Below are positions 43,839 to 64,000 of a stretch of 64,000 nt of DNA, one piece after another (within the stretch, counting starts at the first letter, position 1; each line of letters begins with the position of its first letter). The position numbers and the translations under genes are program-made. The notes beneath the pieces are model-generated. The model was not told where the DNA came from. It searched no databases and saw nothing but the letters and a program-made list of their open reading frames with translations. The DNA is from Paenibacillus kribbensis (GTDB lineage Bacteria > Bacillota > Bacilli > Paenibacillales > Paenibacillaceae), in contig NZ_CP020028.1 in NCBI RefSeq assembly GCF_002240415.1, positions 2,877,501 to 2,941,500 of the forward strand. Direction: 5' to 3'.

Positions 43839-45428
43839 TTACAGTACGGCTTGCTTCTCCAATTCACGCAGCGCCACTCTTCGAATTTTGCCCGAGCTGG
43901 TTTTGGGAAGTTCCTGAATGAACTCTATTTTTCGTGGATACTTATAGGGTGCAGTCCATGCTTTAACATGCTGCTGCAGCTCCTTTGCCAGCTCTGGTGA
44001 TCCTTCTACTCCGGCTTTAAGTACAATGTAGGCCTTTACGACATGTCCGCGTATTGAGTCAGGGCTTGCTACGGCAGCACATTCCTGCACGGAATCATGC
44101 TTCATAAGCGCTTCCTCTACTTCAAAAGGACCAATAGTATAACCGGAGCTGATAATGATATCATCACCGCGTCCTTCAAACCAGAAGTATCCATCCTCGT
44201 CTTTGCGAGCCCGATCTCCTGTCACAAAATATTCACCATGGATACTCATTGCTTTGCGTTCCGGATCAAGGTAATACGTATGGAATAATGCCGGAAGATC
44301 AGCACGTACTGCAATATCACCGACTTGACCCGCCGCCAGCGGGATGCCATCCTCGTCTACGACCTCAACAAGTCCCGGCGCAATGGATTTGCCCATCGAA
44401 CCTGTACGCAGAGGTACGTCCTTCAAGTTGCCAATAATTAATGTGCTCTCCGTCTGCCCATAACCGTCACGAATCGTAATGTTGAACTGCTCCTGAAACT
44501 TGTTAATAACCTCCTGATTGAGAGGTTCTCCCGCGGAAACTGCGCTGCGCAATTGGGACAGATTGTACTGATCCAAGCCATCCGTTTTGGCCATAATCCG
44601 ATATTCCGTGGGCGTACAGCATAATACCTGAATCCCATACTCCTGCAGGAGCTGTAAATAGCGCCCCGGACGAAACGGACCATTGTATATAAATCCGGTC
44701 GCTCCATTCCCCAGTACGGATAAAAACGGACTCCAAATCCATTTTTGCCATCCCGGTGCTGCTGTAGCCCATACTACATCTGAAGCTTGGATATCCAGCC
44801 ATGGGGATGTTATTCGCAGATGAGCATACCCCCAGCCATGGCTATGTACGACACCTTTAGGATTCCCTGTAGTACCCGAGGTATAGGCCAGAATCGCCAT
44901 GTCGTCCCGATGTGTCTTCACAGCTTCAAAAGTATCGTCCTGCCCGTCCATCAGTTCATCCAGAACAAGCCAGCCGGGTGTAGATTCCGTGCTGTCACCG
45001 GAAACCATGATCCGATAATCCAGGGCAGGCATATCATCAATTATTTTGTCTACTTCCCCGGTTACTCCGGTCCAGGCAATGACCCCTCGTGCTTGTGAAT
45101 GGCGAAGACGATACGCAATATCCTTTGCCCGCAGCATTTCCGAAGAAGGAATAACGGCAAGTCCCAGCTTCAAGCACGCCAGGTAAATCACATACGCAAT
45201 AATACGCCGTGGTACTACGACCAGAACTCTGTCTCCTTTGTTAAATCCCAGACTTGTGAGTCCACCAGCCAGTCGATTGGCCTTTTTCAACAGCTCTCCG
45301 TAGGTGATCTCCTCGTATTCTCCAGTTTCGCTCAACCACTTGAGTGCTGTTTTATCAGCATCATGGTGTTCCATTTCCGAGGTCATATTGTAATATTCAG
45401 GCGCAAGCCATTGTTGCTGATCTGTCAA
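43839..45428 (-). CDS. mbcS: Acyl-CoA ligase, MbcS type
   Basis: A 529-residue AMP-forming ligase that activates branched or short/medium-chain acids to CoA esters. The P-loop motif Y-T-S-G-T-T-G-N-P-K-G, the A5 motif D-G-Y-G-Q-T-E-S, the hinge G-R-G-D-D-I-I and the catalytic Lys in S-S-G-K-I-R-R are all present. The length equals MbcS of B. subtilis. Branched-chain acyl-CoA serves as primer for anteiso/iso membrane lipids. Translation starts at a TTG (45428) after AAGGGGA. The downstream aminopeptidase is 44 nt away on the same transcript. Confidence 0.85.
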   Translation of the reverse strand: MTDQQQWLAPEYYNMTSEMEHHDADKTALKWLSETGEYEEITYGELLKKANRLAGGLTSLGFNKGDRVLVVVPRRIIAYVIYLACLKLGLAVIPSSEMLRAKDIAYRLRHSQARGVIAWTGVTGEVDKIIDDMPALDYRIMVSGDSTESTPGWLVLDELMDGQDDTFEAVKTHRDDMAILAYTSGTTGNPKGVVHSHGWGYAHLRITSPWLDIQASDVVWATAAPGWQKWIWSPFLSVLGNGATGFIYNGPFRPGRYLQLLQEYGIQVLCCTPTEYRIMAKTDGLDQYNLSQLRSAVSAGEPLNQEVINKFQEQFNITIRDGYGQTESTLIIGNLKDVPLRTGSMGKSIAPGLVEVVDEDGIPLAAGQVGDIAVRADLPALFHTYYLDPERKAMSIHGEYFVTGDRARKDEDGYFWFEGRGDDIIISSGYTIGPFEVEEALMKHDSVQECAAVASPDSIRGHVVKAYIVLKAGVEGSPELAKELQQHVKAWTAPYKYPRKIEFIQELPKTSSGKIRRVALRELEKQAVL

Positions 45429-46885: not shown

Positions 46886-48139
46886 TTATGAATTGTGGGA
46901 AGGGGCTACTCCTCCAATCTCCCCTGATGGAATCTCAAACTGGCGAATATCCTTGACCAGGAACATAACCAATCCGCACAATGCAGTAATCAGTCCGCTG
47001 AAAAATAGGACCTCACTCAAAGCAAACCGTAAAGTTAACGCCCCTCCAATCAAGGCCCCTAATGGCAGAGCCGCGCTCGATAAGGTGTTTAGAAAGGCTG
47101 TAACACGTCCCAGCAACGGCAGCGATGTAATAATTTGAATCAAAGACGTTTGCAGTACATTGATGATGCCTGTAAAAACGCCTAATAACAGAGCTGCCAG
47201 CAGCTTCATCCACATCTCCGGCACGATGGAAAACACATAGATTGCCAGCCCCATAGCCACCCAGGAAACCGCAATGGTAATGCCGTTCTTTTTCAATACA
47301 CTGACTAGAAAGGAACCGATAAAAATACCGATAAAATAGGCTACATAGAGCAAGCTGTAATAGATCGGTGAGCCATAGGATACAGCGATGGAAGGCATGG
47401 CAATTACCAAGATCGCCATCGAAAAGTTCGTTAGAGCAAAGAACGGAAGCATAATTCTCAGGAAGGTGTGCCGTTTTACAAAAAGATACCCTTCTTTCAG
47501 CTCCTTCAGATAGTACCCCAGCTTCAGTGAACCCCTCCCGTTCGCGTCTTCCACCGCAGGAGCATCGATTTGCTTGTTGAGCCTGACGTACACAAAGCCT
47601 GACAGAAACAGTATCGCACTGGCTAGAAAAAACGTATTTTTCATCCCCATTGCGATGATGAGCGAGGCTCCAGCCAGATATCCGGCGATATTAATAACCT
47701 GATCCGTCGACGAAATCATGGAATTCGCCCGGACAATCAAATCCGGCGAGCCTACCAGTTGCGGCAGCATTTTACTGTTGGCCGGATAAAACAGTGTGGA
47801 GAAGCAGGATGCAATAAACACAATAACAAGGATAGCGACCAGATTAACCATCCCATCCTGAATGAGAAACGGGACGGTCAAAATAAGCACAGCCTGCGTA
47901 AACAAGGCGATGCTGGCCAACAAAGGCGGTGAATAACGGTCCACTAAAGGACCCACGAGAAAGCTGAAAATCGACGCCGCAGATACGGCTGTATACGTAA
48001 AGCTGGTCATCGCCACCGATTGCGTTGATTGCTGTACAAAATACAGCAGGACGATGGAATAAATGCTGTCCGCGATATTGGCAGAAGTACGGGAAGCAAA
48101 GAAACGGATAAAACGACTATCCTTAAACAATTGATTCAC
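46886..48139 (-). CDS. MFS exporter of the NRPS operon
   Basis: A 417-residue major facilitator with twelve helices. It belongs to the EntS/MFS_3-like exporter group: N-terminal F-I-R-F-F-A-S-R-T, G-P-L-V-D-R-Y at the first loop and Y-P-A-N-S-K-M-L-P in the middle. Members export enterobactin-like and peptide products. It starts at a GTG 12 nt after the last NRPS gene, and its ribosome site GGAG overlaps that gene's stop, so it is made together with the synthetases and most likely exports the peptide. Confidence 0.85.
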   Translation of the reverse strand: MNQLFKDSRFIRFFASRTSANIADSIYSIVLLYFVQQSTQSVAMTSFTYTAVSAASIFSFLVGPLVDRYSPPLLASIALFTQAVLILTVPFLIQDGMVNLVAILVIVFIASCFSTLFYPANSKMLPQLVGSPDLIVRANSMISSTDQVINIAGYLAGASLIIAMGMKNTFFLASAILFLSGFVYVRLNKQIDAPAVEDANGRGSLKLGYYLKELKEGYLFVKRHTFLRIMLPFFALTNFSMAILVIAMPSIAVSYGSPIYYSLLYVAYFIGIFIGSFLVSVLKKNGITIAVSWVAMGLAIYVFSIVPEMWMKLLAALLLGVFTGIINVLQTSLIQIITSLPLLGRVTAFLNTLSSAALPLGALIGGALTLRFALSEVLFFSGLITALCGLVMFLVKDIRQFEIPSGEIGGVAPSHNS

Positions 48140-48151
48140 ATCTTCATCTCC

Positions 48152-51100
48152 TTACTGCGAAATGGTCAAAGCGTTTAAAAGCTTGTCACTAGCAGCCTGG
48201 AAGATTTGATGGATATACTGTCGGTCCTCTTCATACGGAAGGATCAGAGAAATCTCCAGAACTTTGCCGACATGCTGTATCTCGAAAAAAATGGCTTTAT
48301 TGACGCTCAATTTTTCTCCATCTGCATCCATTTGGTCAAAAAGTGCCGAGTCTTCTCTGCTCTCCCCCAAATAATTGAAAACAACAGGCAATTGTTCAAG
48401 CCCCTTTTTCAAGATACGGCTGGAATCGGGATAAGCCTCCTCCATATCTGCGTTGATCATTAGATTAAAAAAGTTCAAATGATGGCGTGTAGCCGAGTCC
48501 AATTGTGCAAGGATGCCTTTTTCACGAGCTGCGATGTCGTCTTCCTGAAGTACAATGGGAATATGATCAATACATTCGCCCACCGTTCCAAAATAGTTCT
48601 GATCACCATACTGTCTTCCGTAATTTGTCATCCATAGCGGAACCTCGGAAATATGAAAATAGGCGCTGAAAAATTGGTAAGCCATCTGTAGTGAAAGACT
48701 CCACATGCTCGCAGATTGCCCCGGCTCCGGAGTGTGGCTCACATCCAATCTCCAATGATACTTGGTAGATACGGCATGGTTACGATTTTGTGTTAGGGCC
48801 TGAATAAGATCGTTATTTTCGCCAAACACCTGAAGCCTGAATTGCTTGTTCATTTGCTGATCACTGATGCCTTGAGGGCCTTGACGGATATGCTCCACAT
48901 AATCCCGATAATGATTGGCTTCTATTTGCTGTGGTGCCTGCTGGGGATGGTGATATTCATCAAGAAGCTGTCTCCGCAAAATCCCACCGCTTGTAGCATC
49001 AAAAATAATATGTGAGCATGGCAGCAGAAGCAGTTGCTCCCGCAAGTTTAAGCGAATCAGGACAATACGATATTGTAAAGCATGTGTCTGCTCATACGGT
49101 TCCTCATAAAACTTGGGCACCATGTAAGAAAGGAGCCTCTGCTGTATATATACCGGATACTCAGAAAGATCCACCATAGGCAAGCTGATATGCTCTGGTG
49201 CAGGTTTAAGCCCCCAGGTCCACGTTTCATCTGACTTCATAATGACACTTCGCAGCAACTCATGACGATGAATTAGTCGTAGAATAGCGGCGGTCAATCG
49301 TGGGATGTTCAAATAGCTGTCCAACCGGATAGACATGCCTGACCCGACAGGATGCTGCAAATGATAGAGCTGTACAGGAGCAAGCGGGTATTGTCCAATC
49401 GTGTCCGGAGCCAGTATATGGGTACTCCATTCCGTATTTAAGCCAGCAATATTGTCCGCCCATTCTTCGGCCTGATGTTGGATGAGGGCTTCTTGTTCAG
49501 GGTTTGTCAGCTCGGAGTCATCTGTCACGGGAACTCCGCATACCCGATGGGGCTCGTCTATGCCCCATGGAATAATATAATGGGGATACAGCTCGGGGTG
49601 TATGCGGGATTGAATAAATTCTGTAATGTCCTGAACCTGCTCTGCATGGAAAGGCTCTAGTTGCAGGAACAGATAGTCTTGTTGAGCACTGGATACGGTT
49701 CGAAGCAAGGCATGAGTACCAAAGGCTTCTCCGATAATCCGCCCGGCCTCCCGAGGGTCGGCTATAAGTTTGCTTGTTTCCTCTACTCCCGCTTCCCCGC
49801 GTTGCAAAAGATCGTACAAGCTGCGAATCGTCTGATATTGAAGCAATTGATGTATATCCAACGGGATGTTCAATTCCTGTGCTTTGGATACCAGCTGGAT
49901 GGCTTTTAAAGAGTGCCCGCCAAGCTCGAAAAAGCTGTCGTCAATACCGATCCTTTCGACTCCAAGCACCGCTTGCCACAGGTTCGCCAGTTGCTGTTCC
50001 ACTTCATTTCTGGGGGCCGTGTACTCTAGCTGGGAACTATTGATCGCTTCCGGCTTAGGAAGCGCTTGCTGATCAATCTTTCCATTCGTGTTCAAAGGAA
50101 GCGACGGCAGAAATACATATTGGGCAGGAATCATATAGTCTGGCAATTGACCCGCCAAATGGGCTTTCATCTCACTTATAGTCAAAACTGCATCGGTTGC
50201 AATGTAAGCACAGAGTGTTTTTTGACCATCATTCGCAGCTCTTACGGCAACATGTACTCCATAAATAGCATCATGTCTCATAAGCCTGGTTTCTATTTCC
50301 CCAGGCTCGATTCGATAGCCGCGGATTTTAACCTGTTGGTCGATTCGTCCAAGATACTGCAGATTACCGTCTGGCAGCCATCTGCCCAGATCACCTGTCC
50401 GGTACATCTTTTCACCGGGAATGAACGGATTAGGGACAAACTTTTCCCGAGTCAGCTCATCTCTGTTCAGATATCCGCGCGCCAGACCATCACCACCCAC
50501 ACAAATTTCGCCTTGAGTCCCGATAGGCAGCAATCTGTTTGAAGAATCCAGTATATAGGCAGTGGAATTTCCGATTGGCCGCCCGATCGGAATGTTGCTA
50601 TACTCCTTTTCAATCGGAAAACAGCATGAGAATGTGGTATTCTCTGTCGGACCATAGCCATTAATGATCGTCAAGCCAGGACATTTCTTTCTAACGTTAG
50701 CGATGATTGCAGGTGAAAGCACATCTCCCCCTACTAGCAGGTATTTGAGAGGGGAAAATAGTTCGGGCTTTTGCTGAGCAAGTTGATTGAACAATGGCGA
50801 TGTCAGCCACATCGTCGTAATGTGATTTTGCTCGAGAGCAGTACCCAGCTTCACCGCATTTAAAATGATGGATTCCGGCACGATATACAAACGCAGACCA
50901 TTGAGCAAAGCTCCCCAAATTTCAAAGGTACAGGCATCAAATACTAAAGCTCCGGTCATTAGAATGCGGTCGTTCTCTGCGAATTGTACGTAATTTGTAT
51001 TTTTGACCAGTCGTATGACATTTCGATGCTCAATCATGACTCCCTTAGGACGACCCGTGGAGCCGGAGGTGTACATCACATACGCCAAATCATCTGCTGT

Positions 51101-52918
51101 TGCCGATCGATTGGAACTGGCGAAGACGTCGGTATCATAAGAGCCGATATCGCCCAAATCCAGCACAATACCGGAAAATTCGAATCCAGTTGTTTGGCTT
51201 CCCCTGCCTGATAATGTAAGTAAAATATCGCTGTGGCTATCCTGAAGCATAAATGTAATCCGGTCTTGCGGATAGGCAGGATCTATCGGCAAATAAGCTG
51301 CTCCAGCTTTTAAAATACCTAGTACCCCAATAATCATTTCGGGTGATCGTTCGGTCAGGATAGCCACAATGGTATCTGGCTGAACGCTCAGCTTCCGCAG
51401 CTTGGAGGCCAACTGATTAGCCTTTGTATTTAATTCCCTGTAGGTCAGCTCTCGATCTTCAAATACAATTGCCACCGCTTCCGGTGTCTTTTCTGCCTGT
51501 TCCTCAAAACAGTGATGGATTGTATGCTCAGCAGGGTACAAGGTCCGGGTATCATTAAAATCGAACAAGAGCCACTGTTTCTCCTCTGTCGTCACAAAAT
51601 CCAGGTCCTTAACGGATATATCCGGGTTAAGAAGGACCTGCTCCATGGCTTGGCTGAGATGACTGGCGATAAGCTGGATCATGTTTGAGTCATAGGTTAG
51701 CTCGTTATAGCTAAATCTGATTTCAAGCTTGCATCCAGGCACGACAACAACGTTCAAATCGTAGTTCGTTTGCTCGATTTCCTCCACTTCCGAGATGCGA
51801 ATCGTTTTTGATTCTTCCTCAAGGCTCATGAGATCTTCGGAAATTGGATAATTTTCAAATGCGACAATATGACCAATCAGATTTTGCTTTAATGAGGTGT
51901 GAGACTGGATATCAGCTAGTGACAGATAGGAATACCGATTGGACTCCATCATGGAATCCTGCACAGACGCCAGTAAATCCGAAAACCGTTGTTCCGGGGA
52001 GCTGATGATTCGTACCGGGATCGTATTGATGAACAAACCAACCATATTTTCTATCCCAGGTACTTCATCCGGTCTGCCAGATACAACTGAACCCAGAATG
52101 ACATCGTTACTGTTATTGTATGCTTGTAGTAAAATACCCCACAGGGTTTGAAACACGGTGCTAACGGTGACACGGTACTGCTTGGCAATATGCTCCAAGC
52201 CTTGGGTCAGGCGTTCTTCCCATATGCTTGTAAATTGTTTTGCCCTATAGGAGGAATCGAACGACCGCATATAGCCGGGAACGACGGTTTCATTTTCAAC
52301 ATGAAGCAAATATCGTTGCCAGTATGCGGCCGCTTCCTCTTTGTTTTGTCTCTCCAGCCACTGGATAAAGCTGCTGAATGGAAAAACTGGCCCCAGCTTT
52401 AAAGACGTATTGTCCCGAAGAGAACTGTAGATGTCGAAAAAATCCTGGGCTACTGTACCCATACACCAGCCATCCATCACAATGTGAGGAAAGCTCCAAA
52501 TAAGCTTGGAGTCTTCCTTTGTCCATTGAATTAAAGCCAGTCGAATCGGAACCTCTTTTTCTAGATCAAAGCCTGTTTGTCGATCGTTTTTTAGAAAAGA
52601 TTCCAGAAGAGATTTTTTTTCTTCGTCCGGCTGTCCGCTCCAATTTTCAATATGGATGGGAGTGGCCTCCCGTTGTTCCAGAACGACCTGAAGAGGCCGT
52701 TCGGTTTCCTTATACATAAAGACAGTGCGGAAAATATCGTATCGGTCGACCAACTTTTGCAAGCTTTGCTGTATTAGGCTGGCGTCCAAAATGTCTTGAA
52801 TGGTGATAACGGTCTGTTCAAAATAAGCCTCCGACTTTTGATCCAATATGGAATGAAACAGCATGCCCTCTTGCATTGGCGAAAGCGGATAGAGGTCTTT
52901 AATTTTCACCTGAGCCAA
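48152..52918 (-). CDS. NRPS, C-A(Val-like)-T plus terminal condensation-like domain
   Basis: A 1588-residue terminal synthetase. The C domain (1-450) has F-P-H-I-V-M-D-G-W, where the first His of the usual HHxxxDG is Pro but the catalytic second His stays. The A domain (455-955) is complete, with Y-T-S-G-S-T-G-R-P-K-G, Y-R-T-G-D-L and N-G-K-I-D. Specificity residues read D-A-F-W-L-G-G-T-F, a valine code. The T domain has Ser1003 (L-G-G-H-S). From 1060 on there is no thioesterase but a condensation/epimerase-type domain with S-H-I-I-F-D-A (1302-1308) and F-N-Y-L-G. The N terminus (L-S-P-M-Q-E-G-M-L-F-H) is an acceptor docking end. The start codon is TTG after AGGAGAGG. Confidence 0.9.
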   Translation of the reverse strand: MAQVKIKDLYPLSPMQEGMLFHSILDQKSEAYFEQTVITIQDILDASLIQQSLQKLVDRYDIFRTVFMYKETERPLQVVLEQREATPIHIENWSGQPDEEKKSLLESFLKNDRQTGFDLEKEVPIRLALIQWTKEDSKLIWSFPHIVMDGWCMGTVAQDFFDIYSSLRDNTSLKLGPVFPFSSFIQWLERQNKEEAAAYWQRYLLHVENETVVPGYMRSFDSSYRAKQFTSIWEERLTQGLEHIAKQYRVTVSTVFQTLWGILLQAYNNSNDVILGSVVSGRPDEVPGIENMVGLFINTIPVRIISSPEQRFSDLLASVQDSMMESNRYSYLSLADIQSHTSLKQNLIGHIVAFENYPISEDLMSLEEESKTIRISEVEEIEQTNYDLNVVVVPGCKLEIRFSYNELTYDSNMIQLIASHLSQAMEQVLLNPDISVKDLDFVTTEEKQWLLFDFNDTRTLYPAEHTIHHCFEEQAEKTPEAVAIVFEDRELTYRELNTKANQLASKLRKLSVQPDTIVAILTERSPEMIIGVLGILKAGAAYLPIDPAYPQDRITFMLQDSHSDILLTLSGRGSQTTGFEFSGIVLDLGDIGSYDTDVFASSNRSATADDLAYVMYTSGSTGRPKGVMIEHRNVIRLVKNTNYVQFAENDRILMTGALVFDACTFEIWGALLNGLRLYIVPESIILNAVKLGTALEQNHITTMWLTSPLFNQLAQQKPELFSPLKYLLVGGDVLSPAIIANVRKKCPGLTIINGYGPTENTTFSCCFPIEKEYSNIPIGRPIGNSTAYILDSSNRLLPIGTQGEICVGGDGLARGYLNRDELTREKFVPNPFIPGEKMYRTGDLGRWLPDGNLQYLGRIDQQVKIRGYRIEPGEIETRLMRHDAIYGVHVAVRAANDGQKTLCAYIATDAVLTISEMKAHLAGQLPDYMIPAQYVFLPSLPLNTNGKIDQQALPKPEAINSSQLEYTAPRNEVEQQLANLWQAVLGVERIGIDDSFFELGGHSLKAIQLVSKAQELNIPLDIHQLLQYQTIRSLYDLLQRGEAGVEETSKLIADPREAGRIIGEAFGTHALLRTVSSAQQDYLFLQLEPFHAEQVQDITEFIQSRIHPELYPHYIIPWGIDEPHRVCGVPVTDDSELTNPEQEALIQHQAEEWADNIAGLNTEWSTHILAPDTIGQYPLAPVQLYHLQHPVGSGMSIRLDSYLNIPRLTAAILRLIHRHELLRSVIMKSDETWTWGLKPAPEHISLPMVDLSEYPVYIQQRLLSYMVPKFYEEPYEQTHALQYRIVLIRLNLREQLLLLPCSHIIFDATSGGILRRQLLDEYHHPQQAPQQIEANHYRDYVEHIRQGPQGISDQQMNKQFRLQVFGENNDLIQALTQNRNHAVSTKYHWRLDVSHTPEPGQSASMWSLSLQMAYQFFSAYFHISEVPLWMTNYGRQYGDQNYFGTVGECIDHIPIVLQEDDIAAREKGILAQLDSATRHHLNFFNLMINADMEEAYPDSSRILKKGLEQLPVVFNYLGESREDSALFDQMDADGEKLSVNKAIFFEIQHVGKVLEISLILPYEEDRQYIHQIFQAASDKLLNALTISQ

Positions 52919-52973
52919 AATTCACCTCTCCTTTACCGTGCGAATGTTTAATTTCATGTTGGTTTGTTCATCT

Positions 52974-55900
52974 TTATTTGAGATTGTTCAACAGCTTGTC
53001 GGCCAAACGACTTGCCATATGTTCAAACTCTCCGATGGATAATTGCCCATATGTGAAATCAGTCGGACTTTGCTCGGTTGTTTCCTTTGCGCAGCAATGG
53101 CGAATGAGCCCCAGCAAATGCTTTTTATATCCTGTAGTCAACCGCTCCACCGTAGATGGTTCATATTCACGCCCGCTATAGTCAAATACAAGACGAAATT
53201 TTCCATCCATTACCATGCCGTTGATATCAAAGGTAAATGTTCTTTCGGCATGGGGACTCACTTCAGCACCGACCAACGAAGAAAGCGTTGAAGTTCGCAA
53301 AAGTGCATCTGCTCCAGCCTTCCCATCAAGTTGTCCCAAGTAGTTAAAGCTGATTTCCGGGACCTTGGCTGAAAAAAGTGTATTCGTACCCTGCTGGTTC
53401 CTTGGGGACAAATAGCGTAAAATCCCGTATCCTACACCCTTGTTGGGCAGCCGCCGCAGCTTGTCTTTAACCAGCTTGATCTGATGGGCCAAGTCTTCCG
53501 GCTTGCTTACGTCCATCACAAACGGATACTCGGACGTAAACCAGCCGACTGTGCGGGAAACATCTATGTCTTTGATGAACTCCTCCCTGCCGTGCCCTTC
53601 CAAATAAACCGCAATTTCAGCATGCCCGCTCCATTCATGAAAAGCTAACCCTAGCGCCGTCAGTAAAATATCATTAATTTCGGTATTGTAGGCATGGTGC
53701 ACGTGTTTCAACAGGTTTTCGGTTTCTGCCTGGGTGAGTGTCACTTCGGATTGGCATGCGTCACGAATGAGGCTAACCGAAACCTCATGATCTTTTGGCA
53801 GAGGGTGTATCTCACGAGCTTCTACCGCATTCCAGTAGTTTATTTCCTGACGCGCCTGTGCGCTTTGCGCGTACTCGGACAAACGCGCTGCCCATTCCTT
53901 GTAGGAATCGGTCTTGGCGGGGAGCTGTAGCTTTTCTCCGTTAGCTAACTGTTGGTAGGTTGTTTCCAGGTCTTCCAGCAGGATTCTCCACGACACACCG
54001 TCTACGACAAGATGATGAATGATGATTAATAAATGATCGGCTTCCTGTAGCCGGAATAAAGCCAAACGCACAAGCGGGCCGTTGCGCAAATCAAAACGGC
54101 TTTGTAACGCGTCAGCAAGCTGCGCGATTTCTTCCTCAGGCTGGTCAGCATGTAATAAATCGTAGCTTTTCAATGTAAAGTGTTCACCTTCGGCTATGGC
54201 TTTGTTAAAGGCGACAGGTTCTTTTTCACGCTCATCAAAGGTCATGCGCAAGGCATCATGGTGCATGGTCAGCTTATCCATGGCGATTCTCAGCCAGGCT
54301 TCGTTCCATCTTTCGGCGTTCTGGAGCATGACAGCCTGATTATAATGATGACGTTCTGTTCGATGATGCTCAAAAAATTCCCATTGGATCGGTGTCAGCT
54401 CCACTACACCTTGAACTTCCCCCTGCGGGATGGTCCGGGTTACTTCTTTGATATAAGGAGCGATCAAATCAATCTGCGGATGACGGAACAAATCCTTCAT
54501 ATCCATTTTGAGACCCTTCGCATTCAACCGGACCATAATTTGTAGTGCTTTGATCGAATCCCCGCCAAGCTCGAAAAAGTTGTTGCGCAGGCCAATCGGC
54601 TTAACGCCAATGACTTCCTCCCAGATGGAAGCGAGTGTCTGCTCCAGCTCGCTCTGCGGCGCTTCATACTCGACGTCGGTCAACGCAAAATCTTCGGGTT
54701 CTGGAAGCGCACGTCGATCAATTTTACCGTTATGGGTCAAAGGCAATTGATCCATAACGATCATATGCGCAGGCACCATATAGCTTGGCAACTGCTTGGC
54801 AAGCTCTGTCCGCAGGAAGGATTTGTCGGTTGTACCTGCTACGTAGGCGCACAAATACTTTTGTCCGGTCTTATCCGTTCTATCCGTGACCACCGCTTGG
54901 CGTACCTCATCCAATTGGAGTAAGGCCGACTCAATTTCACCAAGCTCGATCCGGTAGCCACGGATTTTTACCTGAAAGTCAACCCGGCCTAGAAAATCAA
55001 TGTTGCCATCTGGCAGCCAGCGGGCCAGATCTCCGGTGCGGTACAGACGCTCTCCGTTCACAAAAGGATTCGGTACAAATTTCTCCGCCGTCAGGTCAGG
55101 ACGGTTCAAATAACCGCGGGCCACAGAAGCACCGCCCAAGCACAACTCCCCGGCTACACCGATAGGGAGCGGCCGCAAAGCCTCATCCACAATATATACT
55201 TTATGATTTGGCAGTGCTTTTCCAATCGGGACGATACCTGATGGAGGCAGATGTTCAGCTGTTTCTTCATAAAAGCTGGAATCAATAGCCGCTTCAGTTA
55301 CACCGTAGGTATTTATGATGCGCATCGTATCGCCGAAGCGATTCAAAAGCGTCCGATAGTTCTCAACGCCAAAGCTGTCCGCGCCTGTAGTAAGCAGCTT
55401 CATGGCACTGACATCTGTACCGTGTTCATATACGTAGTCCATAAACAGTGTCAACAAGGCTGGCGGAACTTCAAACGTCGTAATTTCGTGCTGTTCGAGA
55501 ACCTGGGCCAAAGCTGGAGGATCGTTGCGCACATCCTGCGGGCAAATGACCATGGTGCCTCCGTTCAAGAATGTCTTGGCCAGATCACCGGCAAAGACAT
55601 CGAACGACATACTGGCAATCTGAAGGAGCTTGACTGGAAACTCTTTTAACTGGTGAGCTTCTCTATAGCCCCACGCCGTATTTACGTAATGGCGATGCTC
55701 GATCATCACCCCTTTGGCGTTGCCCGTCGTTCCCGATGTGTAAATGACGTAGGCCAAAGCCTCAGGATCATGAATAGGCGTGTAGATGGGCGCTTGTTGA
55801 TGGGAATGCTCCGCTTGTGAAGCTTGTTGAAATAACGCTGGCAAGTCCAGCACTTCACCAGCAAAATCCACATCGGTCAATAGTTGAGTCAAAGAAGACT

Positions 55901-57617
55901 GCGTGAGCATAATCGTAGCCATGCTGTCCTGAAGCATGTAAGCAATTCTCTCTTTCGGGTAGGTCGGATCGACAGGTACGTAGGCAGCTCCCGCCTTCAT
56001 AATCCCTATCACAGCGATAATCATGTCTGCTGAACGCTCAAGCATCACGGCGACGAGATGTTCGCGCTTGACCCCACGGTTCTGTAGTGCTTGAGCAAGC
56101 AGATTGGCCTTCTCATTCAACTCATGATAGGTCAGTGCAGTATCTTCGTAGATGACAGCGGTCTGTTCCGGGATACGTTCTGCCTGCGCCTCAAATATTC
56201 CATGAAACGTTCCGGCAGGATAGTCAGCAATCGGTCCGCTCCATACATTAGTTAGCTCTGCCTCTTCTGTAGCGGTCAGCAGACGAATGTCCCGCAGCAG
56301 GAGCTCTGGTATACGTGCAATCTGAACGAGTGTATGCTCCAAATGTCCGGCTAACCGTGTCATCGCTTCATCGCTGTAGACATAGTTGTTGTAGGACAGC
56401 ATAAAGCTCAGCGCTTTTCCGTCCTCCACTTCGATGTTGAAGTGGTAAGGCGTTTCTTCGGACAGCTGGGCGTCCTCCACGACGAATCCAAGCCGTTCCT
56501 TCAGATCAGGCCGGCCAACCATATCCTCCAGCCGGTAATTTTCAAACACAACAAAATGATTCATGAGTTGCTGCTTGAGCGCTGACTGGGACTGTATTTC
56601 AGCGAGTGAAAAATAGTCATATGCCCGTGATTGAACCGCGCTGCGCTGCACTTCACGAAGCAGACCTGAGAATGGCTGATCTGCATTCAACTTGATCCGT
56701 ACCGGTATGGTGTTAATGAAAAGTCCCAACATCTGTTCCACACCTTCAAGTTCCGGCGGTCGACCGGAAACAACGGTGCCGAAGACGACGTCTTCACTTT
56801 GATTGTATCCTCCAAGCACCACTCCCCATGCAGCCAGAAACAGACTGCTAAGGGTTGTTCCGTTGCGTTCAGCCACCGCCCGCAATTGACGGGTTGTTTC
56901 ATCCGTGAGTGTTATTTTATGCTCATGCAGCAAGTACCCGGTATCTGCCTGGAGCGGATCGGCTACAGGCAGAGTTGGCAGCACGGATGGCTGATCATAG
57001 CCGTTCAGGATGGACCGCCAGTATTCCCTCGCCGCCTCCTTATCCTGCTTATCCAGCCAGCGGGCATAGCCAGTATAGGGCTGCGGTGTTGGCAGTTGTA
57101 CGGTCTTACCCGCTTTCAGTGCTTCATAAGCCGTGAACAGCTCGTCCATCACGATGCCGAGGCACCAACCGTCCATAATAATATGATGAAAGCTTAAAAG
57201 CAGCGTATATGCATTCGTTTGAGTTTGAAGCACAGCCAGACGAATGAGCAAATCCTTGCTCAGATCGTAACGATGGTTCCGGTCTGCGTCTACGTAGCTG
57301 CGAATGGCTTCAGCTTGCTCTGCCTCGGGAATATTCATCAAATTTTCGTAACGAAGCGTTGGATTTCGCTCCTTAAACACGATGAGCCGCGAGCGGGAGG
57401 CACTTTTATGATAAATATTCGAACGAAGCGTTTCGTGACGCTGTACCAGGGTCTGAAAGCTCTTTTGCAGAGCCTCCAGGTTCAGTTCACCCCGGATGGT
57501 CATTCGTACTTGCTCATAGTACGCCTGTGATTCCGGCTCCATCACCGTATGAAAGAGCATCCCCTCCTGCAAAGGCGTTAAATTGGCCACTTTTTCGATT
57601 TCAAGCCTTTTACTCAT
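52974..57617 (-). CDS. NRPS, C-A(Orn/Dab-like)-T-E
   Basis: A 1547-residue one-module synthetase. The C domain (1-450) has intact F-H-H-I-I-M-D-G. The A domain (455-985) has specificity residues D-V-G-E-L-T-T-I-D; D-V-G-E...I-D is the pattern of ornithine and 2,4-diaminobutyrate domains, so a short basic residue is expected. The T domain has Ser1021 in L-G-G-D-S. The E domain (1070-1510) has H-H-L-V-V-D-G-V-S-W (from 1201), E-G-H-G-R-E and F-N-Y-L-G-Q intact, so the residue becomes D-configured. The C-terminal tail (P-T-D-F-T-Y-G-Q-L-S-I-G-E-F) is a donor docking end, matched by acceptor ends in the next protein. It lies 55 nt before the terminal synthetase gene. Confidence 0.92.
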   Translation of the reverse strand: MSKRLEIEKVANLTPLQEGMLFHTVMEPESQAYYEQVRMTIRGELNLEALQKSFQTLVQRHETLRSNIYHKSASRSRLIVFKERNPTLRYENLMNIPEAEQAEAIRSYVDADRNHRYDLSKDLLIRLAVLQTQTNAYTLLLSFHHIIMDGWCLGIVMDELFTAYEALKAGKTVQLPTPQPYTGYARWLDKQDKEAAREYWRSILNGYDQPSVLPTLPVADPLQADTGYLLHEHKITLTDETTRQLRAVAERNGTTLSSLFLAAWGVVLGGYNQSEDVVFGTVVSGRPPELEGVEQMLGLFINTIPVRIKLNADQPFSGLLREVQRSAVQSRAYDYFSLAEIQSQSALKQQLMNHFVVFENYRLEDMVGRPDLKERLGFVVEDAQLSEETPYHFNIEVEDGKALSFMLSYNNYVYSDEAMTRLAGHLEHTLVQIARIPELLLRDIRLLTATEEAELTNVWSGPIADYPAGTFHGIFEAQAERIPEQTAVIYEDTALTYHELNEKANLLAQALQNRGVKREHLVAVMLERSADMIIAVIGIMKAGAAYVPVDPTYPKERIAYMLQDSMATIMLTQSSLTQLLTDVDFAGEVLDLPALFQQASQAEHSHQQAPIYTPIHDPEALAYVIYTSGTTGNAKGVMIEHRHYVNTAWGYREAHQLKEFPVKLLQIASMSFDVFAGDLAKTFLNGGTMVICPQDVRNDPPALAQVLEQHEITTFEVPPALLTLFMDYVYEHGTDVSAMKLLTTGADSFGVENYRTLLNRFGDTMRIINTYGVTEAAIDSSFYEETAEHLPPSGIVPIGKALPNHKVYIVDEALRPLPIGVAGELCLGGASVARGYLNRPDLTAEKFVPNPFVNGERLYRTGDLARWLPDGNIDFLGRVDFQVKIRGYRIELGEIESALLQLDEVRQAVVTDRTDKTGQKYLCAYVAGTTDKSFLRTELAKQLPSYMVPAHMIVMDQLPLTHNGKIDRRALPEPEDFALTDVEYEAPQSELEQTLASIWEEVIGVKPIGLRNNFFELGGDSIKALQIMVRLNAKGLKMDMKDLFRHPQIDLIAPYIKEVTRTIPQGEVQGVVELTPIQWEFFEHHRTERHHYNQAVMLQNAERWNEAWLRIAMDKLTMHHDALRMTFDEREKEPVAFNKAIAEGEHFTLKSYDLLHADQPEEEIAQLADALQSRFDLRNGPLVRLALFRLQEADHLLIIIHHLVVDGVSWRILLEDLETTYQQLANGEKLQLPAKTDSYKEWAARLSEYAQSAQARQEINYWNAVEAREIHPLPKDHEVSVSLIRDACQSEVTLTQAETENLLKHVHHAYNTEINDILLTALGLAFHEWSGHAEIAVYLEGHGREEFIKDIDVSRTVGWFTSEYPFVMDVSKPEDLAHQIKLVKDKLRRLPNKGVGYGILRYLSPRNQQGTNTLFSAKVPEISFNYLGQLDGKAGADALLRTSTLSSLVGAEVSPHAERTFTFDINGMVMDGKFRLVFDYSGREYEPSTVERLTTGYKKHLLGLIRHCCAKETTEQSPTDFTYGQLSIGEFEHMASRLADKLLNNLK

Positions 57618-57641
57618 CGGATTTCCCCCTCGGGCGAATAA

Positions 57642-60600
57642 TTATAGGCTTTCATAAAAATGCTTCATCTCTTCGAACTCTTCCAGATCCAGATCATCTG
57701 CCCCTACGTCTGTTGGTGTCAGTTCCTGACCGGATTGATCCAGACAATGACGGATGGCATTCAACAGGTGAGTTTCGAAGCGAGAGAAAAGTTGTTTGAC
57801 CGTGCGCTCTTCATATGCATTTCTGTCATAGGATATACGGATACTTAATTTTCCGTCTTCCAAGCGGCTATCCATATAAAGAGCATAAGATGAACAATTA
57901 ACCGCATCCTTGCTACCTGCTCCAACTTCAGCTTGCAGCGGCGATGTTGAAAAATAAACCGATTCCGGGTGTAGGGCGTCTATATAACGGAACCCCATTT
58001 CCGGATGACGAGAACGTTGGGAATTCGTTGGATTGCTGAATTCGGTCAAATATTTTAATACACCGTAGCCTAGCCCATGGTTGGGAACCTGTCGAATGGT
58101 CTCCTTCACACGCTTGAGCAACCGCGCTATATCATCCGCAGATTTGATATCCAGTACAACTGGATACACGGACGTAAACTGCCCTACCGTTCTGGAGATA
58201 TCCAGCGAATTTGTTTCACCCGGCTCTCGGCCAGGGTTCTCCACGTAGAGTGCAATCCGTTCTTGTCCTGACCATTCGGACACTGTTTGACCCAGCACGG
58301 ACAGCAGTACTTCCTCCGGCACGGTATTGTAGGCATGGTTGACCTGTGTCATCAGATGCTGGGTTTCGTCTGTTGATAATTGCAGGTGGAGCTGATGTGT
58401 TTGTCTCTCCGCTCCAGAATCCGCAATGACTTCATGGTCTTTGGGAAACGTCCCCCACTCGGACAACTCGATCTTGTTCCAATAGTCCTGCTCCTTGAGC
58501 AGCTCTTTGCTATTTGCATAATGCTCAAGATGCTCTGCCCACGTTTGGTAAGCGTTCGTTTTGTCCGGTAAGACAATCATTTCCCCGTTCAAAGCCTGTC
58601 CGTAGCCTGTTGCAAGGTCCTCCAGCAGAATGCTCCACGATACTTGGTCAGCTACCAGCGGGTCTACGGCAAGGAAAAGATGGTCCCCGCTATCCAGATG
58701 GAAAAGCCCTGCCCGAACCCGAGGCCCTTCAAACAATCGCAGGCTGCTTTGCATCCGTTGGCATTCGGCTTCCAATTGGCTGCGTGCTTCGCTTTCTATT
58801 CCCGTCAGCGACAACACCTCCAGGGTAAAAAGCTCCTCATGCAGTCCTTTGTGAGCTTGCATAACCGACCCGTCAGCCTGTCGTAATAAGCCAAGGCGCA
58901 GAGCATCGTGGTGCTCTACGATTTTCTTCAATGCAGCACGCAATGGCTGCTCGTCAAAGCCCGACTTTGCCAACAGCAGTACCGACATTGCGGCAGGAAG
59001 GGCCTCGGATGCTGGATGCCGTTCGAACCCATCGATTAGATGTCGTTGTATCGGTGTCAGTGGTGCCTCTCCATCTATCTGGCCTTGCTCTATCGGGCGG
59101 GATAGTGTTTCTGTATAGCCGCTCAGAATTTCAATGGACGGATGCTCCAGTACGTGTCGGATATCCAGTGAATATCCGTGAAGACGCATGCGTGCAATGA
59201 CCTGAACTGCTTTGATGGAATCGCCTCCGAGCAGGAAGAAGTTATCCTGAATGCCCACCTGATCACGTCCCAAAATATCTTGCCATACGGCGGCCAAAGC
59301 TTCTTCCACATCATTTCGCGGTGCTACATAGGCCACATCCGGTCGGAATAGCTTTTCAGGCTCCGGCAATGCTTTTCGGTCGGTTTTTCCGTTCGGTGTC
59401 AACGGTATCCGATCCAGAAACACGAAGTAAGACGGAACCGAGTAATACGGAAGCAACTTGGCGGCATGTTCATGAATGACCGTTAAGCTCGGTGTTTCTT
59501 CTGTATTCAGTACAAGGTAGGCACACAAGGCGGATTCTTGCTCTTTGTTTTGATTTACAGTGACGACTGCCTCTTGAATTGCAGAATGGCTCATCAAAGC
59601 ATTTTCAACCTCACCCAGCTCGATCCGGAATCCGCGTACTTTCACCTGATGGTCGATTCGGCCGATAAACTCCAGATTTCCGTCTGCTTTCCAGCGAGCG
59701 AGGTCACCCGTTCTGTACATTTGTGTTCCTGTTGAAAATGGATTATTCACAAATTTTTCCGCCGTCAACTCCTCGCGGTTCCAATAGCCACGGGCCAGCC
59801 CTTCCCCTGCAATACATAGCTCGCCCGGTATGCCGATTGGCTGCAATCTGTCCTGCGCATCCATGACATAAATGTGCGTATTCGCAATGGGGCGTCCAAT
59901 GTCAATCTGTTTGGCATGGGTAAGCTCCTGTACTGCCGACCAAACCGTCGTTTCCGTTGGCCCATACATGTTATAAATGCGGGGACCGTTCAAATTCTGC
60001 AATGCCTCCAGCAGCCTGGACGGGAGCGCTTCTCCCCCAACCATAATTTCCTGTACACCTTGCAGCGCACGGGAGCCTTCCTCATGATTCAGCAGCATGT
60101 GCAGCCGGGATGGCGTCATTTGCAGCATGTCAATATGATGTGCAGTAATCAGCTCGCCAAGTGTCTGAGGATCGACCTGATGATGGCGGTCGCCTAGCAC
60201 GACGGTCATTCCGCCCAGCAGCGGCAGAATCGTTTCCAAAACGAAAATATCGAACGAAATGGTAGTGAGCGATAACATCGTTTTGTTCGCTGCAAAGTCG
60301 ATCACTTCACGCATTCCTGTAATAAAATTCAGCACCGAGCGATGCTGGAGCATAACTCCTTTCGGATTTCCGGTTGAGCCAGAAGTATAGATGACGTAAG
60401 CCAGATGCTCCGGCTGAGCATTGGCTTCCAGATTGGTCCTTTCCCCTTGATATACTTCCTCATCTTCGATAAACAGCGTGTTGTCGCTGTAATGGTGTTC
60501 TCCTACCAGCTCGCGACTGGTCAGGAGTACGGCAGCCTCACTGTCACTCAGCATATATTCAATACGGGCTGACGGATATTCAGGGTCGATAGGCACATAA

Positions 60601-63600
60601 GCGCCACCCGCTTTTAGCACGGCGAGCAGACCGATAATCATTTCCGCCGAACGCTTCACCATCAGACCGACTAGCTTATCGGGTCCTACACCATGCGCTT
60701 GAAGTACCCGTGCCAGTGAGTTCGCGCGTTCGTTCAACTCTCGGTAGGCCAGACGCTGCTTTCCGAACACCAATGCTATATGATCCGGCGTCTGTAAGAC
60801 TTGCTTTTCAAACTGCCCGTGGAGTGTCTCATGGTATGGGAAAGGTACGACAGTATCATTAAATCCCGTTAGCAGCAATTGCTTCTCTTCATCAGATACG
60901 ATCGTAATATCGGCCAACCGCACCCCGGCATCCTGCGTCACCGTTTCCAAAATTCGCACATAATGCTCGGCCAGCCGCCGGATGGTCTCCGGTTTAAACA
61001 GCTTTGTGCCATACTCCAAAGTGAAGGACAAACGTTCTTTCTCCTCGGTCACATGCAATGAAAAATCTACCTTGGATATGCCCGCGTTGAATTCTTCCGG
61101 TTTAAAACGAATGCCTCCTGTTTCCAAAACATCTGTGCCGACATTTTGCAAACTGAATATCGTATCGAATATCGGGTTTCGACTTACGTCGCGTACCAGT
61201 TCCAGCTTGTCTACAAGCTCATCGAACGGGTATTCCTGATGCTCCAGTGCCAGCAGCAAGTTTTGCTTAACCTCCTGCAAAAAGGACTGGAACGTTAAAG
61301 AAGCTTGCGGCTGATTGCGAAGAACCAGCGTATTGACGAACATGCCAATCATCGTTTGCGTATCCACATGCCGTCTTCCGGCAACAGGTGTACCCACGAT
61401 AATGTCCTCTTGGCCGGAATATTTGCCCAACAGGACATTATAAGCCGTCAAAAGTACCATAAAGATGGTAGATTCGGTATCCTGGGCCAATTTGTAAAGT
61501 CTGCTCGTAAGTTTGGATTCCAGGGTGATGGTCAAGCTGTCGCCTTCAAAACTTTGTGCTTGCGGGCGTGAAAAGTCCGTAGGCATATTCAGTACAGGAA
61601 GCTCGCCATTCAAGGTCTGAAGCCAATATGATTCATGCACTTGCCATGCGTCATCCATGATCTGCTGCTTCTGCCAAGCAACAAAGTCTTTGTAATGAAG
61701 CTGAACGTTCGCAAGCTGTCTACCCTGATACCGTTGAATGATTTCATCCAGCAGCACGGCCATGGAGAAACCATCGGACACGATGTGGTGCATATCCACT
61801 AGCAGATTGAAGCCACCTTCGATAAATTCGTACAGTTCGGCGCGGAATAAAGGAGCTGTTCCCAGATGAAAAGGCTGAACAAACAAGGTCCGAGCCTGTT
61901 TTGCTTCTTCCTTGGAAATACGGGTATACGGGATGTCGAATGGAATCGTGTCCCGAATTTTTTGTACCACTTCCCCGTCCTCCAGATCGAAATACGTCCG
62001 AAAGGATTCATGACGCAAAATAACTTCCCTAACGGCTTCAATGAAGCGGGAAACCTCCAGATCTCCCTCTATAAAAAGCTGACCGGGTACATGATAGGCC
62101 GTCCCACCTCCCAGCTGATCCAGCACATACATTCTCTTTTGGGAAGAAGATACCGGATAGAAGGCTTGCGATTTCACAGATACAATCGGTTCATAGGTCT
62201 TCTTTGTTCCACTCGCAATATATGTAGCCAGATCACCAATCGTTTGCAGTTCAAAAATGTGGCTGAGTGGAATGTGTACACCTAATTCCTTGTTGACTCT
62301 CGACAGAATGACCGTCGCTTTTAGTGAATCACCGCCCAATTGAAAAAAGTTATCGTCATCGCTGATATCCGTTACATTCAGAACGTCCATCCAAATGTTC
62401 ACGAGTTGATCTTCTACGTCGTGGTTCTCAGAAACGGCGTCTGTTTTAATGAATACGCTTGCTTGTCCCTGCTCTGGCAAAGCCTGTAGATCAGGCTGAC
62501 CATCCGGCAGAAGAGGAATATGGTCCATAGGAATCCAAAAACGGGGCTGCGTATAATCTGGAAGAATTTCGATTACAGCCTTTTTTAGTGCTCCTTCTTC
62601 CCAAGGCTTCGATGCGTTTGCGACCACATAGGCGGCTATATATGAGACTTTTCCAGCTTCGTCCGTTTGTGGTGTAATGACGCAGGACTCCAATTGGAAA
62701 ACTTGCAGCAGGTGTTTCTCCAGCTGCTCCAGGTTAACCTGATGTCCGCGAATGTGGATGCTCCGATTCAAATTTCCAATATGCCGCAGCTTGCCATCGT
62801 TTTCCACGTAAACCCATTCCCGGGTCGTTCCCAACAAACCTGCTGCTGAGGCTTGATACACCTCCCCTGCTGTCCCAACTGGTGCCAAATGCTTGTAGGC
62901 ATCAAGGACGCAAAGATAGTTTCCGTTGGCATCGGTATTTGCTGCCCATGCTGCTCGAAGCTGTTCATTCTCCGGCGCACGGAGTAAAGACAGCGCGGAA
63001 ACGCAAGCCCCTTCTTCCTCTACAATGGAATGCAGCAGATTCAGGAAATATCCTGACCATGCTTCGATCATGTTTTGCTGAAAAAGATCCGAATTGTAGT
63101 CGAAATCAAGACGCAATTGCTTCTGCGCCTCTGTCACGTTCAAAAACAACTCGTATTTGCTGAATGACACCTCATTCTCAACGAGTTCTGCTTCCAGTCC
63201 ATGGAATTGAAAACGCGGAATCGGTCGATCCATATTGAATACAGCGTTAATGACAGGCAAATGCCTCAGCCCCAACTGAGCGAGTCCGGCAAAGCTGTAC
63301 TTTTGAAAGCTGTCCAGTTCATTCATACGCTTTTTGACCGTTTGGACATGCTCCGTAAAAGTAGCATCAGGACGCACTTCGCTGATCATCGGAAGCAAGT
63401 TGACACAGTTGCCGATCAAAGAGAAGGCGTCCATATGGGATTGTCCTGCGGTGGGAACACCCACCGTTACTTCCTGCTGCCCTGTCAGGCGATGCAGAAA
63501 AATCTGAAAGGCGGATAGCAGCGTTACAAAAAGGCTGCTGCCTAGCTTTATGCTGGCGGATCTCAATTGTTTAACGAGCGCCGCTTCGAGCATTACAGCA

Positions 63601-64000
63601 TGCCTGCTTCCTCTGGAAGACGGAATCTGTATTCCCCTCACCGGAGATGGCAGTTGGAGGACAGGCTGCTGCTTTTCTAGCATTACCGACCAAAAAGCAA
63701 GGGCCTCTTCTTTCCCGGTCTTCAATTGATCCTGCTGCCAAACCACGTAATTCCGAAAAGGTATTGGTTCTGGAAGGCTGTAGTCAGCTTGTCGGACAAG
63801 CGCAGAATAGATCTGCTCCAGTTCCTGAATGAATACACCAATCGACCAGCCATCCGCGATAAAATGATGAAACGTAAAGACACTCAGATGCTCTTCATCC
63901 GATATTTTCAGCAAATGAATCCGGAATAACGGCTCGCCTGGCGTCATGGCAAATGGGGTTTCGCTATCCTTGATCATCCATGCCCGGATATGCTGTTCCT
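57642..64000 (-). CDS. NRPS, partial: C, vestigial A, T, C-A(Gly-like)-T, degenerate E
   Basis: The 3' end of a synthetase gene open to the right edge; residues are counted from the Met at 63977. A C domain with H-H-F-I-A-D-G-W (1-335) is cut by the edge. Residues 335-505 are only the C-terminal rim of an A domain: remnants of motifs A6 (G-T-A-G-E-V), A8 (I-H-I-R-G-H-Q) and A10 (D-G-Q-P-D), with A1-A5 and A7 absent and the A10 Lys lost. A normal T domain follows (Ser551), then a complete C (600-1030; H-H-I-V-S-D-G), an A domain with code D-I-L-Q-M-G-M-V-W (glycine-like) and a T domain (Ser1587). The last domain has an epimerase frame, but H-H-x3-D-G reads D-P-L-V-A-D-Q and E-G-H-G-R-E reads E-N-P-G-R-E. 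A donor docking tail ends the protein. Confidence 0.9.
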   Translation of the reverse strand, partial: EQHIRAWMIKDSETPFAMTPGEPLFRIHLLKISDEEHLSVFTFHHFIADGWSIGVFIQELEQIYSALVRQADYSLPEPIPFRNYVVWQQDQLKTGKEEALAFWSVMLEKQQPVLQLPSPVRGIQIPSSRGSRHAVMLEAALVKQLRSASIKLGSSLFVTLLSAFQIFLHRLTGQQEVTVGVPTAGQSHMDAFSLIGNCVNLLPMISEVRPDATFTEHVQTVKKRMNELDSFQKYSFAGLAQLGLRHLPVINAVFNMDRPIPRFQFHGLEAELVENEVSFSKYELFLNVTEAQKQLRLDFDYNSDLFQQNMIEAWSGYFLNLLHSIVEEEGACVSALSLLRAPENEQLRAAWAANTDANGNYLCVLDAYKHLAPVGTAGEVYQASAAGLLGTTREWVYVENDGKLRHIGNLNRSIHIRGHQVNLEQLEKHLLQVFQLESCVITPQTDEAGKVSYIAAYVVANASKPWEEGALKKAVIEILPDYTQPRFWIPMDHIPLLPDGQPDLQALPEQGQASVFIKTDAVSENHDVEDQLVNIWMDVLNVTDISDDDNFFQLGGDSLKATVILSRVNKELGVHIPLSHIFELQTIGDLATYIASGTKKTYEPIVSVKSQAFYPVSSSQKRMYVLDQLGGGTAYHVPGQLFIEGDLEVSRFIEAVREVILRHESFRTYFDLEDGEVVQKIRDTIPFDIPYTRISKEEAKQARTLFVQPFHLGTAPLFRAELYEFIEGGFNLLVDMHHIVSDGFSMAVLLDEIIQRYQGRQLANVQLHYKDFVAWQKQQIMDDAWQVHESYWLQTLNGELPVLNMPTDFSRPQAQSFEGDSLTITLESKLTSRLYKLAQDTESTIFMVLLTAYNVLLGKYSGQEDIIVGTPVAGRRHVDTQTMIGMFVNTLVLRNQPQASLTFQSFLQEVKQNLLLALEHQEYPFDELVDKLELVRDVSRNPIFDTIFSLQNVGTDVLETGGIRFKPEEFNAGISKVDFSLHVTEEKERLSFTLEYGTKLFKPETIRRLAEHYVRILETVTQDAGVRLADITIVSDEEKQLLLTGFNDTVVPFPYHETLHGQFEKQVLQTPDHIALVFGKQRLAYRELNERANSLARVLQAHGVGPDKLVGLMVKRSAEMIIGLLAVLKAGGAYVPIDPEYPSARIEYMLSDSEAAVLLTSRELVGEHHYSDNTLFIEDEEVYQGERTNLEANAQPEHLAYVIYTSGSTGNPKGVMLQHRSVLNFITGMREVIDFAANKTMLSLTTISFDIFVLETILPLLGGMTVVLGDRHHQVDPQTLGELITAHHIDMLQMTPSRLHMLLNHEEGSRALQGVQEIMVGGEALPSRLLEALQNLNGPRIYNMYGPTETTVWSAVQELTHAKQIDIGRPIANTHIYVMDAQDRLQPIGIPGELCIAGEGLARGYWNREELTAEKFVNNPFSTGTQMYRTGDLARWKADGNLEFIGRIDHQVKVRGFRIELGEVENALMSHSAIQEAVVTVNQNKEQESALCAYLVLNTEETPSLTVIHEHAAKLLPYYSVPSYFVFLDRIPLTPNGKTDRKALPEPEKLFRPDVAYVAPRNDVEEALAAVWQDILGRDQVGIQDNFFLLGGDSIKAVQVIARMRLHGYSLDIRHVLEHPSIEILSGYTETLSRPIEQGQIDGEAPLTPIQRHLIDGFERHPASEALPAAMSVLLLAKSGFDEQPLRAALKKIVEHHDALRLGLLRQADGSVMQAHKGLHEELFTLEVLSLTGIESEARSQLEAECQRMQSSLRLFEGPRVRAGLFHLDSGDHLFLAVDPLVADQVSWSILLEDLATGYGQALNGEMIVLPDKTNAYQTWAEHLEHYANSKELLKEQDYWNKIELSEWGTFPKDHEVIADSGAERQTHQLHLQLSTDETQHLMTQVNHAYNTVPEEVLLSVLGQTVSEWSGQERIALYVENPGREPGETNSLDISRTVGQFTSVYPVVLDIKSADDIARLLKRVKETIRQVPNHGLGYGVLKYLTEFSNPTNSQRSRHPEMGFRYIDALHPESVYFSTSPLQAEVGAGSKDAVNCSSYALYMDSRLEDGKLSIRISYDRNAYEERTVKQLFSRFETHLLNAIRHCLDQSGQELTPTDVGADDLDLEEFEEMKHFYESL

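Follow-up and report, generated by a model that had tools for sequence, protein, structure and literature searches.

A condensation domain (C1) and a carrier domain (T1) follow an aminotransferase in a 4224-aa synthetase, and between them lies deltaA, a remnant of an adenylation (A) domain. This C1-deltaA-T1 unit is very probably an acyl-relay (pass-through) module in an iturin-type beta-amino-lipopeptide loading line, and as such would add no amino acid. We favor this reading because of the module's position after the aminotransferase in a loading line of the iturin type. In this analysis it is based on architecture, positional homology, conservation, selection, a fold prediction, and the count of modules against product residues in a relative.

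The loading gene and its cluster

The window, meaning the whole stretch of 64,000 nucleotides that was analyzed, is G000:C1:2877501-2941500 from a 5.78-Mb single-contig genome. The deltaA-bearing gene is on the minus strand and runs off the right window edge (G000:C1:2935142-2947816); beyond the edge lies its N-terminal half, which comprises FAAL-ACP-KS-ACP-AMT (AMT, aminotransferase) and the start of C1. Pfam and home-made profiles were used to assign the domains and gave the order FAAL-ACP-KS-ACP-aminotransferase-C1-deltaA-T1-C2-A-T-E. In the list below, residue numbers refer to the 4224-aa protein.

57642..64000 in the window, continuing to window-equivalent position 70316, minus strand: loading/first-module synthetase gene, a 4224-aa open frame
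Residues 1-552: FAAL
Residues 583-656: first ACP
Residues about 675-1180: KS with its C-terminal parts
Residues about 1302-1377: second ACP
Residues 1561-1990: class III aminotransferase (AMT)
62967..64271 (62967..64000 in the window), minus strand: C1, after the aminotransferase, residues 2016-2450
62463..62975, minus strand: deltaA, residues 2448-2618, putative C-A linker helix plus A6-A10 remnant, non-catalytic
62199..62423, minus strand: T1 carrier domain, residues 2632-2706, with LGGDS at 62325-62339
60882..62165, minus strand: C2, condensation domain of the first amino-acid module, residues 2718-3145
59358..60851, minus strand: intact A domain, residues 3156-3653, pocket DILQMGMVW
59094..59315, minus strand: T2 carrier domain, residues 3668-3741
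57732..59069, minus strand: epimerization-type (E) domain, residues 3750-4195
52974..57617, minus strand: second synthetase gene, C-A-T-E, 1547 aa, pocket DVGETGTID
48152..52918, minus strand: third synthetase gene, 1588 aa, C-A-T with a divergent C-like terminal domain, pocket DAFWLGGTF
46886..48139, minus strand: MFS transporter adjoining the cluster

The first-pass annotation, made from the window alone, had described a module consisting of C, an A remnant, and T, and 171 residues do lie between C1 and a T1 with LGGDS in an open frame. The C domain that it called full length is whole in the genome, but its first ~90 residues are beyond the window edge. C1 carries the active-site motif HHFIADG at 63849-63869 (minus strand). 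In the epimerization-type domain, DPLVADQ occupies 58644-58664 where HHxxxDG is expected, and the domain is probably inactive; DPLxAD is also present in the relatives G420, G421, and G455 and in P. lutrae. The first module is Gly-like, so epimerization there would be pointless anyway.

By the general specificity code, we take the pockets of the first, second, and third synthetase genes to be Gly-like, basic, and Val-like, respectively. The three A domains of the 48152-64000 cluster suggest that its product is an unnamed beta-amino lipotripeptide (Gly-basic-Val by this code). G420 and G421 share the cluster layout, but there genes two and three are fused and the third pockets are slightly different. 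No thioesterase match was obtained in the third synthetase gene. Its terminal C-like domain (48545-49351), in which HIIFDATS replaces HHxxxDG, resembles by eye the end of the PhnE-like protein of P. lutrae and may be a release or ring-closing domain. Three genes downstream of the third synthetase gene, at 43839-45428, an MbcS-type acyl-CoA ligase is encoded (825 bits, just below the NCBIfam cut-off of 850), which might supply branched acyl precursors.

ItuA, MycA, and BmyA (iturin, mycosubtilin, and bacillomycin) have the same FAAL-ACP-KS-ACP-AMT-C1-T1-C2-A-T order as the window gene, with a malonyl transferase gene upstream and a C1-T1 pair that activates no amino acid. In the window gene, FAAL-ACP-KS-ACP-AMT is in cis, no cis AT was matched in the 4224-aa loading line, and C and T come straight after AMT with no working A domain between them. 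Its upstream neighbor encodes an acyltransferase (Acyl_transf_1, 118 bits). Window C1 is the counterpart of the iturin-type first C domain (315 bits, versus 145 for the second). The two types differ in that C1 and T1 of ItuA adjoin without any A sequence. C1 is separated from T1 by 179 aa in the window gene versus 32 in the ItuA-type gene of G314, and a Bacillus/Paenibacillus bare clade (17 loci) passes from C1 to T1 in 26-32 aa, where the window gene has its 171-aa A remnant. The window cluster is also distinct from the iturin type in having only three A domains, in three genes. In the iturin literature available to us in part, the C1-to-PCP1 step is described as a beta-amino fatty acid being passed to the first PCP. 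The available parts of two papers give iturin-type lines an acyl ligase, trans malonyl loading, and an aminotransferase step (PMC3039948, PMC3870968).

What is left of the adenylation domain

Motifs of A domains are referred to here by their general names, A1 to A10. Nearly all of the C1-T1 gap consists of 171 residues that represent the last third of an A domain (A6-A10), as the first-pass annotation had proposed. A home-made A profile, seeded with the cluster's three intact A domains and one from an iturin-type gene, aligned to deltaA only at positions 400-507 of 508, with 53 bits; the intact A domain of the same gene scored 845 bits and, unlike deltaA, is itself a profile seed. TSGSTG (A3), Y[KR]TGD, and NG[KR]x[DN] are all present in the neighboring A domain and all absent from deltaA; the loss of the A10 Lys was thus correctly read. 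Motifs A1-A5 and A7 had been reported missing: A1-A5 are absent and the A7 Asp is lost, but the A7 slot survives in shortened form. In comparison with the C-terminal A parts of PheA of GrsA (1AMU), LgrA, and Txo2, deltaA is without the A1-A5 core, the A7 Asp, the A8 Lys, and the A10 Lys. The earlier view that the module is unable to activate an amino acid agrees with this loss of the core motifs needed.

When the window deltaA was searched alone against Pfam, nothing was found at E 0.01; the only match was to AMP-binding_C at E 0.08, below its cut-off. AMP-binding_C did match 11 of 24 aligned deltaA members, and a profile built from 24 deltaA sequences found solved NRPS adenylation domains, LgrA among them, with E down to 6e-67. 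Fold prediction gives deltaA the barrel and lid of the C-terminal part of an NRPS A domain, and the fold match suggests that its first helix corresponds to the A-domain start (the C-A linker).

Among 40 remnants, the A6 Gly (40), A7 Thr (36), A8 Gly (37), A8 Glu (38), and A10 Gly (38) are kept, and the A7 Asp (2), A8 Lys (1), and A10 Lys (4) are rare. Judged by these alignments, the catalytic residues went and the fold-bearing ones stayed. deltaA is under purifying selection, far from neutral, yet it is less constrained than the enzymes. When the gene was compared with those of G420, G455, and G421, dN/dS was 0.24, 0.20, and 0.28 for deltaA; 0.20, 0.18, and 0.16 for C1; 0.23, 0.21, and 0.36 for T1; 0.21, 0.16, and 0.14 for C2; and 0.08, 0.06, and 0.06 for AMT. 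Two further pairs gave 0.16 and 0.18 for deltaA with dS >1.3, and in the last four pairs deltaA has reached saturation in dS. The divergence of deltaA outpaces that of C1, C2, and AMT; in G412, identity in this comparison is 43% for deltaA, 50% for C1, and 56% for C2.

Distribution and order of events

deltaA was found in 9 of 75 genomes of the genus (E <= 1e-22, own included), at about 45-100% identity. The closest copies are those of G420 (95%), G455 (93%), and G421 (91%), followed by G457, G456, and G454 (72%), by G453, which has two (69% and 57%), and by G412 (45%). In G457, G456, G454, and for one G453 copy, the deltaA gene is without cis FAAL, KS, and most or all of AMT, and the G454 copy is also broken up into three frames; persistence of the gene in these genomes is therefore no proof of function. 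In the G456 region (L056), the gene begins with the second ACP, no longer has most of AMT in frame, and goes on with C1-deltaA-T1-C2.

A single-sequence scan of GTDB contigs found no relative, but an AMT-C1-T1 alignment scan of named GTDB contigs found 244, and the 80 best of these were retained. Among named matches to the AMT region, the best are from P. terrae (92-93%). Loci were sorted by the C1-to-T1 distance taken from domain maps, which was possible for 76 of these best 80. Left unsorted were L123 and L131, with T1 in another frame, and the P. terrae records L089 and L092, in which a FAAL-KS-AMT gene of 92-93% identity stops just past the aminotransferase; it lies at another place than the gene that carries C1-deltaA-T1-C2 in such genomes. 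The 76 sorted loci comprise 36 with a remnant, 22 with nothing between C1 and T1, 5 with a shorter piece, 5 with a long decayed A domain, and 8 with an intact one. By distance, 22 are at 6-36 aa, 5 at 102-112, 36 at 160-200, 3 at 427-448, and 10 at 488-537. Eight of the last ten have A domains that score 341-542 bits and look intact; the other two (Clostridium frigidicarnis and Brevibacillus laterosporus) score 144-146 bits and by eye miss the core motifs. Among the 36 loci of remnant length, four gave no profile match (L113, L133, and L094) or hardly any (L090, 15 bits), and their linkers are A-derived by length and alignment only. The short class is mixed: by eye, Brevibacillus fortis/formosus and Bacillus chungangensis keep the A6 barrel part and P. 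pabuli keeps the lid part.

Active sites persist whatever the state of the A domain, with C1 HHxxxD in 73 of the 76 sorted loci and T1 GxxS in all 76, which accords with the earlier remark that the module is retained with its C and T active sites. The C1 exceptions are one NHLVADG and two Chitinophaga loci (L130 and L139) with H[TS]IIADG, where the second His is gone beside a long decayed A domain without core motifs.

A quick AMT + C1 tree was built from 80 rows (the 76 loci and four close genomes, own included), with a warning of long branches. On this tree the five states need 11 changes, versus 35.4 with shuffled labels; the bare state alone takes 5 and the remnant 7. Remnants of the Clostridia (L104 and L133) and of the P. 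helianthi group (L113, L119, and L122) lie away from the rest. A careful tree was restricted to 39 chosen rows and rooted on six intact-A rows (a root that was chosen, not inferred); it omits most long or scattered rows, including the isolated bare loci L088, L121, L124, L126, and L135. The first split among the remaining rows (100/99) has remnant rows in both of its branches. The nine rows of the bare iturin-type group (100/100) are nested, together with eight remnant rows, within a group of 17 (100/99). Because of this nesting among remnant rows, the bare iturin-type C-T would most simply derive from a remnant-bearing ancestor. Bare forms seem to have arisen elsewhere too.

A further tree of A6-A10 pieces covered 37 remnants, 10 A domains located at the relay position, and 36 other pieces drawn at random. 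All but one of the 37 remnants, together with one piece labeled 'later', cluster in a single set (99) that is separate from the intact A pieces and has no clear sister of full length. With the deltaA profile, ordinary A domains from these loci reach up to 134.5 bits, versus up to 116 for full-length A domains at the relay position. The piece tree suggests one old truncation behind the deltaA remnants, a reading that is weakened by long branches and by the 7 changes on the AMT-C1 tree.

The proposed acyl relay and its alternatives

The nearest relative of the window gene with a characterized product type (paenilipoheptin) is a P. lutrae gene of the PhnC type. As in the window, it has the same deltaA and an E domain with DPxxxD (DPLAAD) and is followed by a one-module gene. 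The pockets are DVWHFSLVD in the deltaA gene, DVCETGTIE in the one-module gene, and DAWAFAGVA, DVFWLGGTF, DAWTFAAVA, DASTLAGVA, and DAKDIGVVD in a 7052-aa frame. By general pocket codes, we take them to specify Ser, basic, Trp, Val, Phe, Tyr, and Glu. The available part of the study of the paenilipoheptin A cluster predicts the same residue order, describes a Ser E domain with DPxxxD that is thought nonfunctional, and gives the product as seven residues plus a beta-amino fatty acid (PMC11959601), with which a total synthesis, as far as its accessible text goes, agrees (PMC11959586). With seven A modules in P. lutrae and seven residues in paenilipoheptin A, the C-deltaA-T module of P. lutrae thus seems to add none; P. 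lutrae is not the studied producer, and the link runs through its cluster and general pocket codes rather than through PhnC of the sequenced producers. The window cluster itself was ruled out as a paenilipoheptin maker by its three A domains with other pockets. Paenilipoheptin begins with Ser and has five more modules in PhnE, whereas in the window cluster the first module is Gly-like and the third gene encodes a single module; the series of seven A modules Ser-Lys/Dab-Trp-Val/Ala-Phe-Tyr-Glu is present in P. lutrae and not in the window.

Of the modes of use listed in the first-pass annotation, the passing on of an upstream acyl chain is the one we favor, the module following an aminotransferase that the window edge had hidden. 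A-less modules occur in other systems, and the T1 and C1 active-site motifs would also suit a module that adds a residue, its T1 receiving an amino acid in trans from a stand-alone A domain. However, only 4 of the 34 AMP-binding matches in the genome are frames of single-enzyme size, namely an acetate-CoA ligase, a DHB-AMP ligase, the MbcS-type acyl-CoA ligase, and a 490-aa ligase ~2.6 Mb away. No stand-alone amino-acid-activating A gene was found in or beside the cluster, where the MbcS-type ligase is the only one nearby. This result, taken with the P. lutrae/paenilipoheptin A arithmetic, led us to reject trans loading of this kind, which we regard as very improbable.

Skipping of the module, with C1 and T1 idle and C2 taking the beta-amino acyl chain direct from the second ACP, is slightly easier to entertain, though still improbable: the module needs to supply no amino acid, and a deltaA lineage without a cis AMT exists. 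It is hard to square with the near-universal C1 and T1 motifs of the sorted loci, found with any A state, and with dN/dS for C1 and T1 well below 1 in the three close pairs. That the remnant reflects an assembly error, a frameshift, or a recent A-domain deletion in this strain is scarcely credible. We found nothing in support of such an origin and rejected it, since relatives carry the same remnant: it is present in nine genus genomes, its length recurs in 36 of the 76 sorted loci, and 36 of 37 remnants group in one well supported set apart from intact A pieces. A full-length module in every relative, which the annotation had named as the sign of a recent deletion or error, is not what the genus contains.

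In the acyl relay that we prefer, FAAL and KS, with a trans malonyl transferase, would assemble a beta-keto acyl chain that is bound to the second ACP and that the aminotransferase would convert to a beta-amino acyl thioester. C1 would then move this chain onto the T1 thiol and C2 would join it to the first amino acid (Gly-like). We infer that C1 itself carries out the acyl transfer in this gene. deltaA would be the leftover of an old A domain whose adenylate-forming subdomains are gone and whose C-A linker, small barrel, and lid were kept, giving a folded, non-catalytic spacer that probably maintains the geometry of C-A-T and carries T1 to C1. In the Bacillus iturin line, the stump would later have been lost completely. 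The docking role is our inference, and the bare iturin-type lines, which do without deltaA, count against it as a general need.

The relay chemistry is already known, and the deltaA case is a variant of that step. No description of a conserved A stump or of an erosion series was found in the literature searched, as far as its available text goes and with older iturin-synthetase papers outside its scope. On truncated adenylation domains, a single paper was found, about a poly-ornithine synthetase, and the work found on vestigial, degenerate, or inactive ones concerned, among the matches listed, ubiquitin-type E1 enzymes or diseases linked to them. Because the window remnant falls below the Pfam cut-off, modules of this sort may be mistaken for broken or trans-loaded ones in genome mining. 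The accessible parts of the iturin synthetase literature give no origin for the bare C-PCP pair, and possible intermediates live in sequenced genomes. Two questions thereby become open to experiment: whether chain transfer from one carrier thiol to another is carried out by a C domain, and which A-domain parts carrier shuttling needs when no amino acid is activated. It is possible, although we lean against it, that deltaA is a working part rather than a relic, a long-kept mobile arm that docks T1 at the acceptor site of C1, with C1 acting as a thioester-to-thioester acyltransferase. If this were true, the loci would form a natural series that leads from intact A through dead full-length A and barrel plus lid to a single piece and a bare linker, which would show how assembly lines turn an amino-acid module into a relay.
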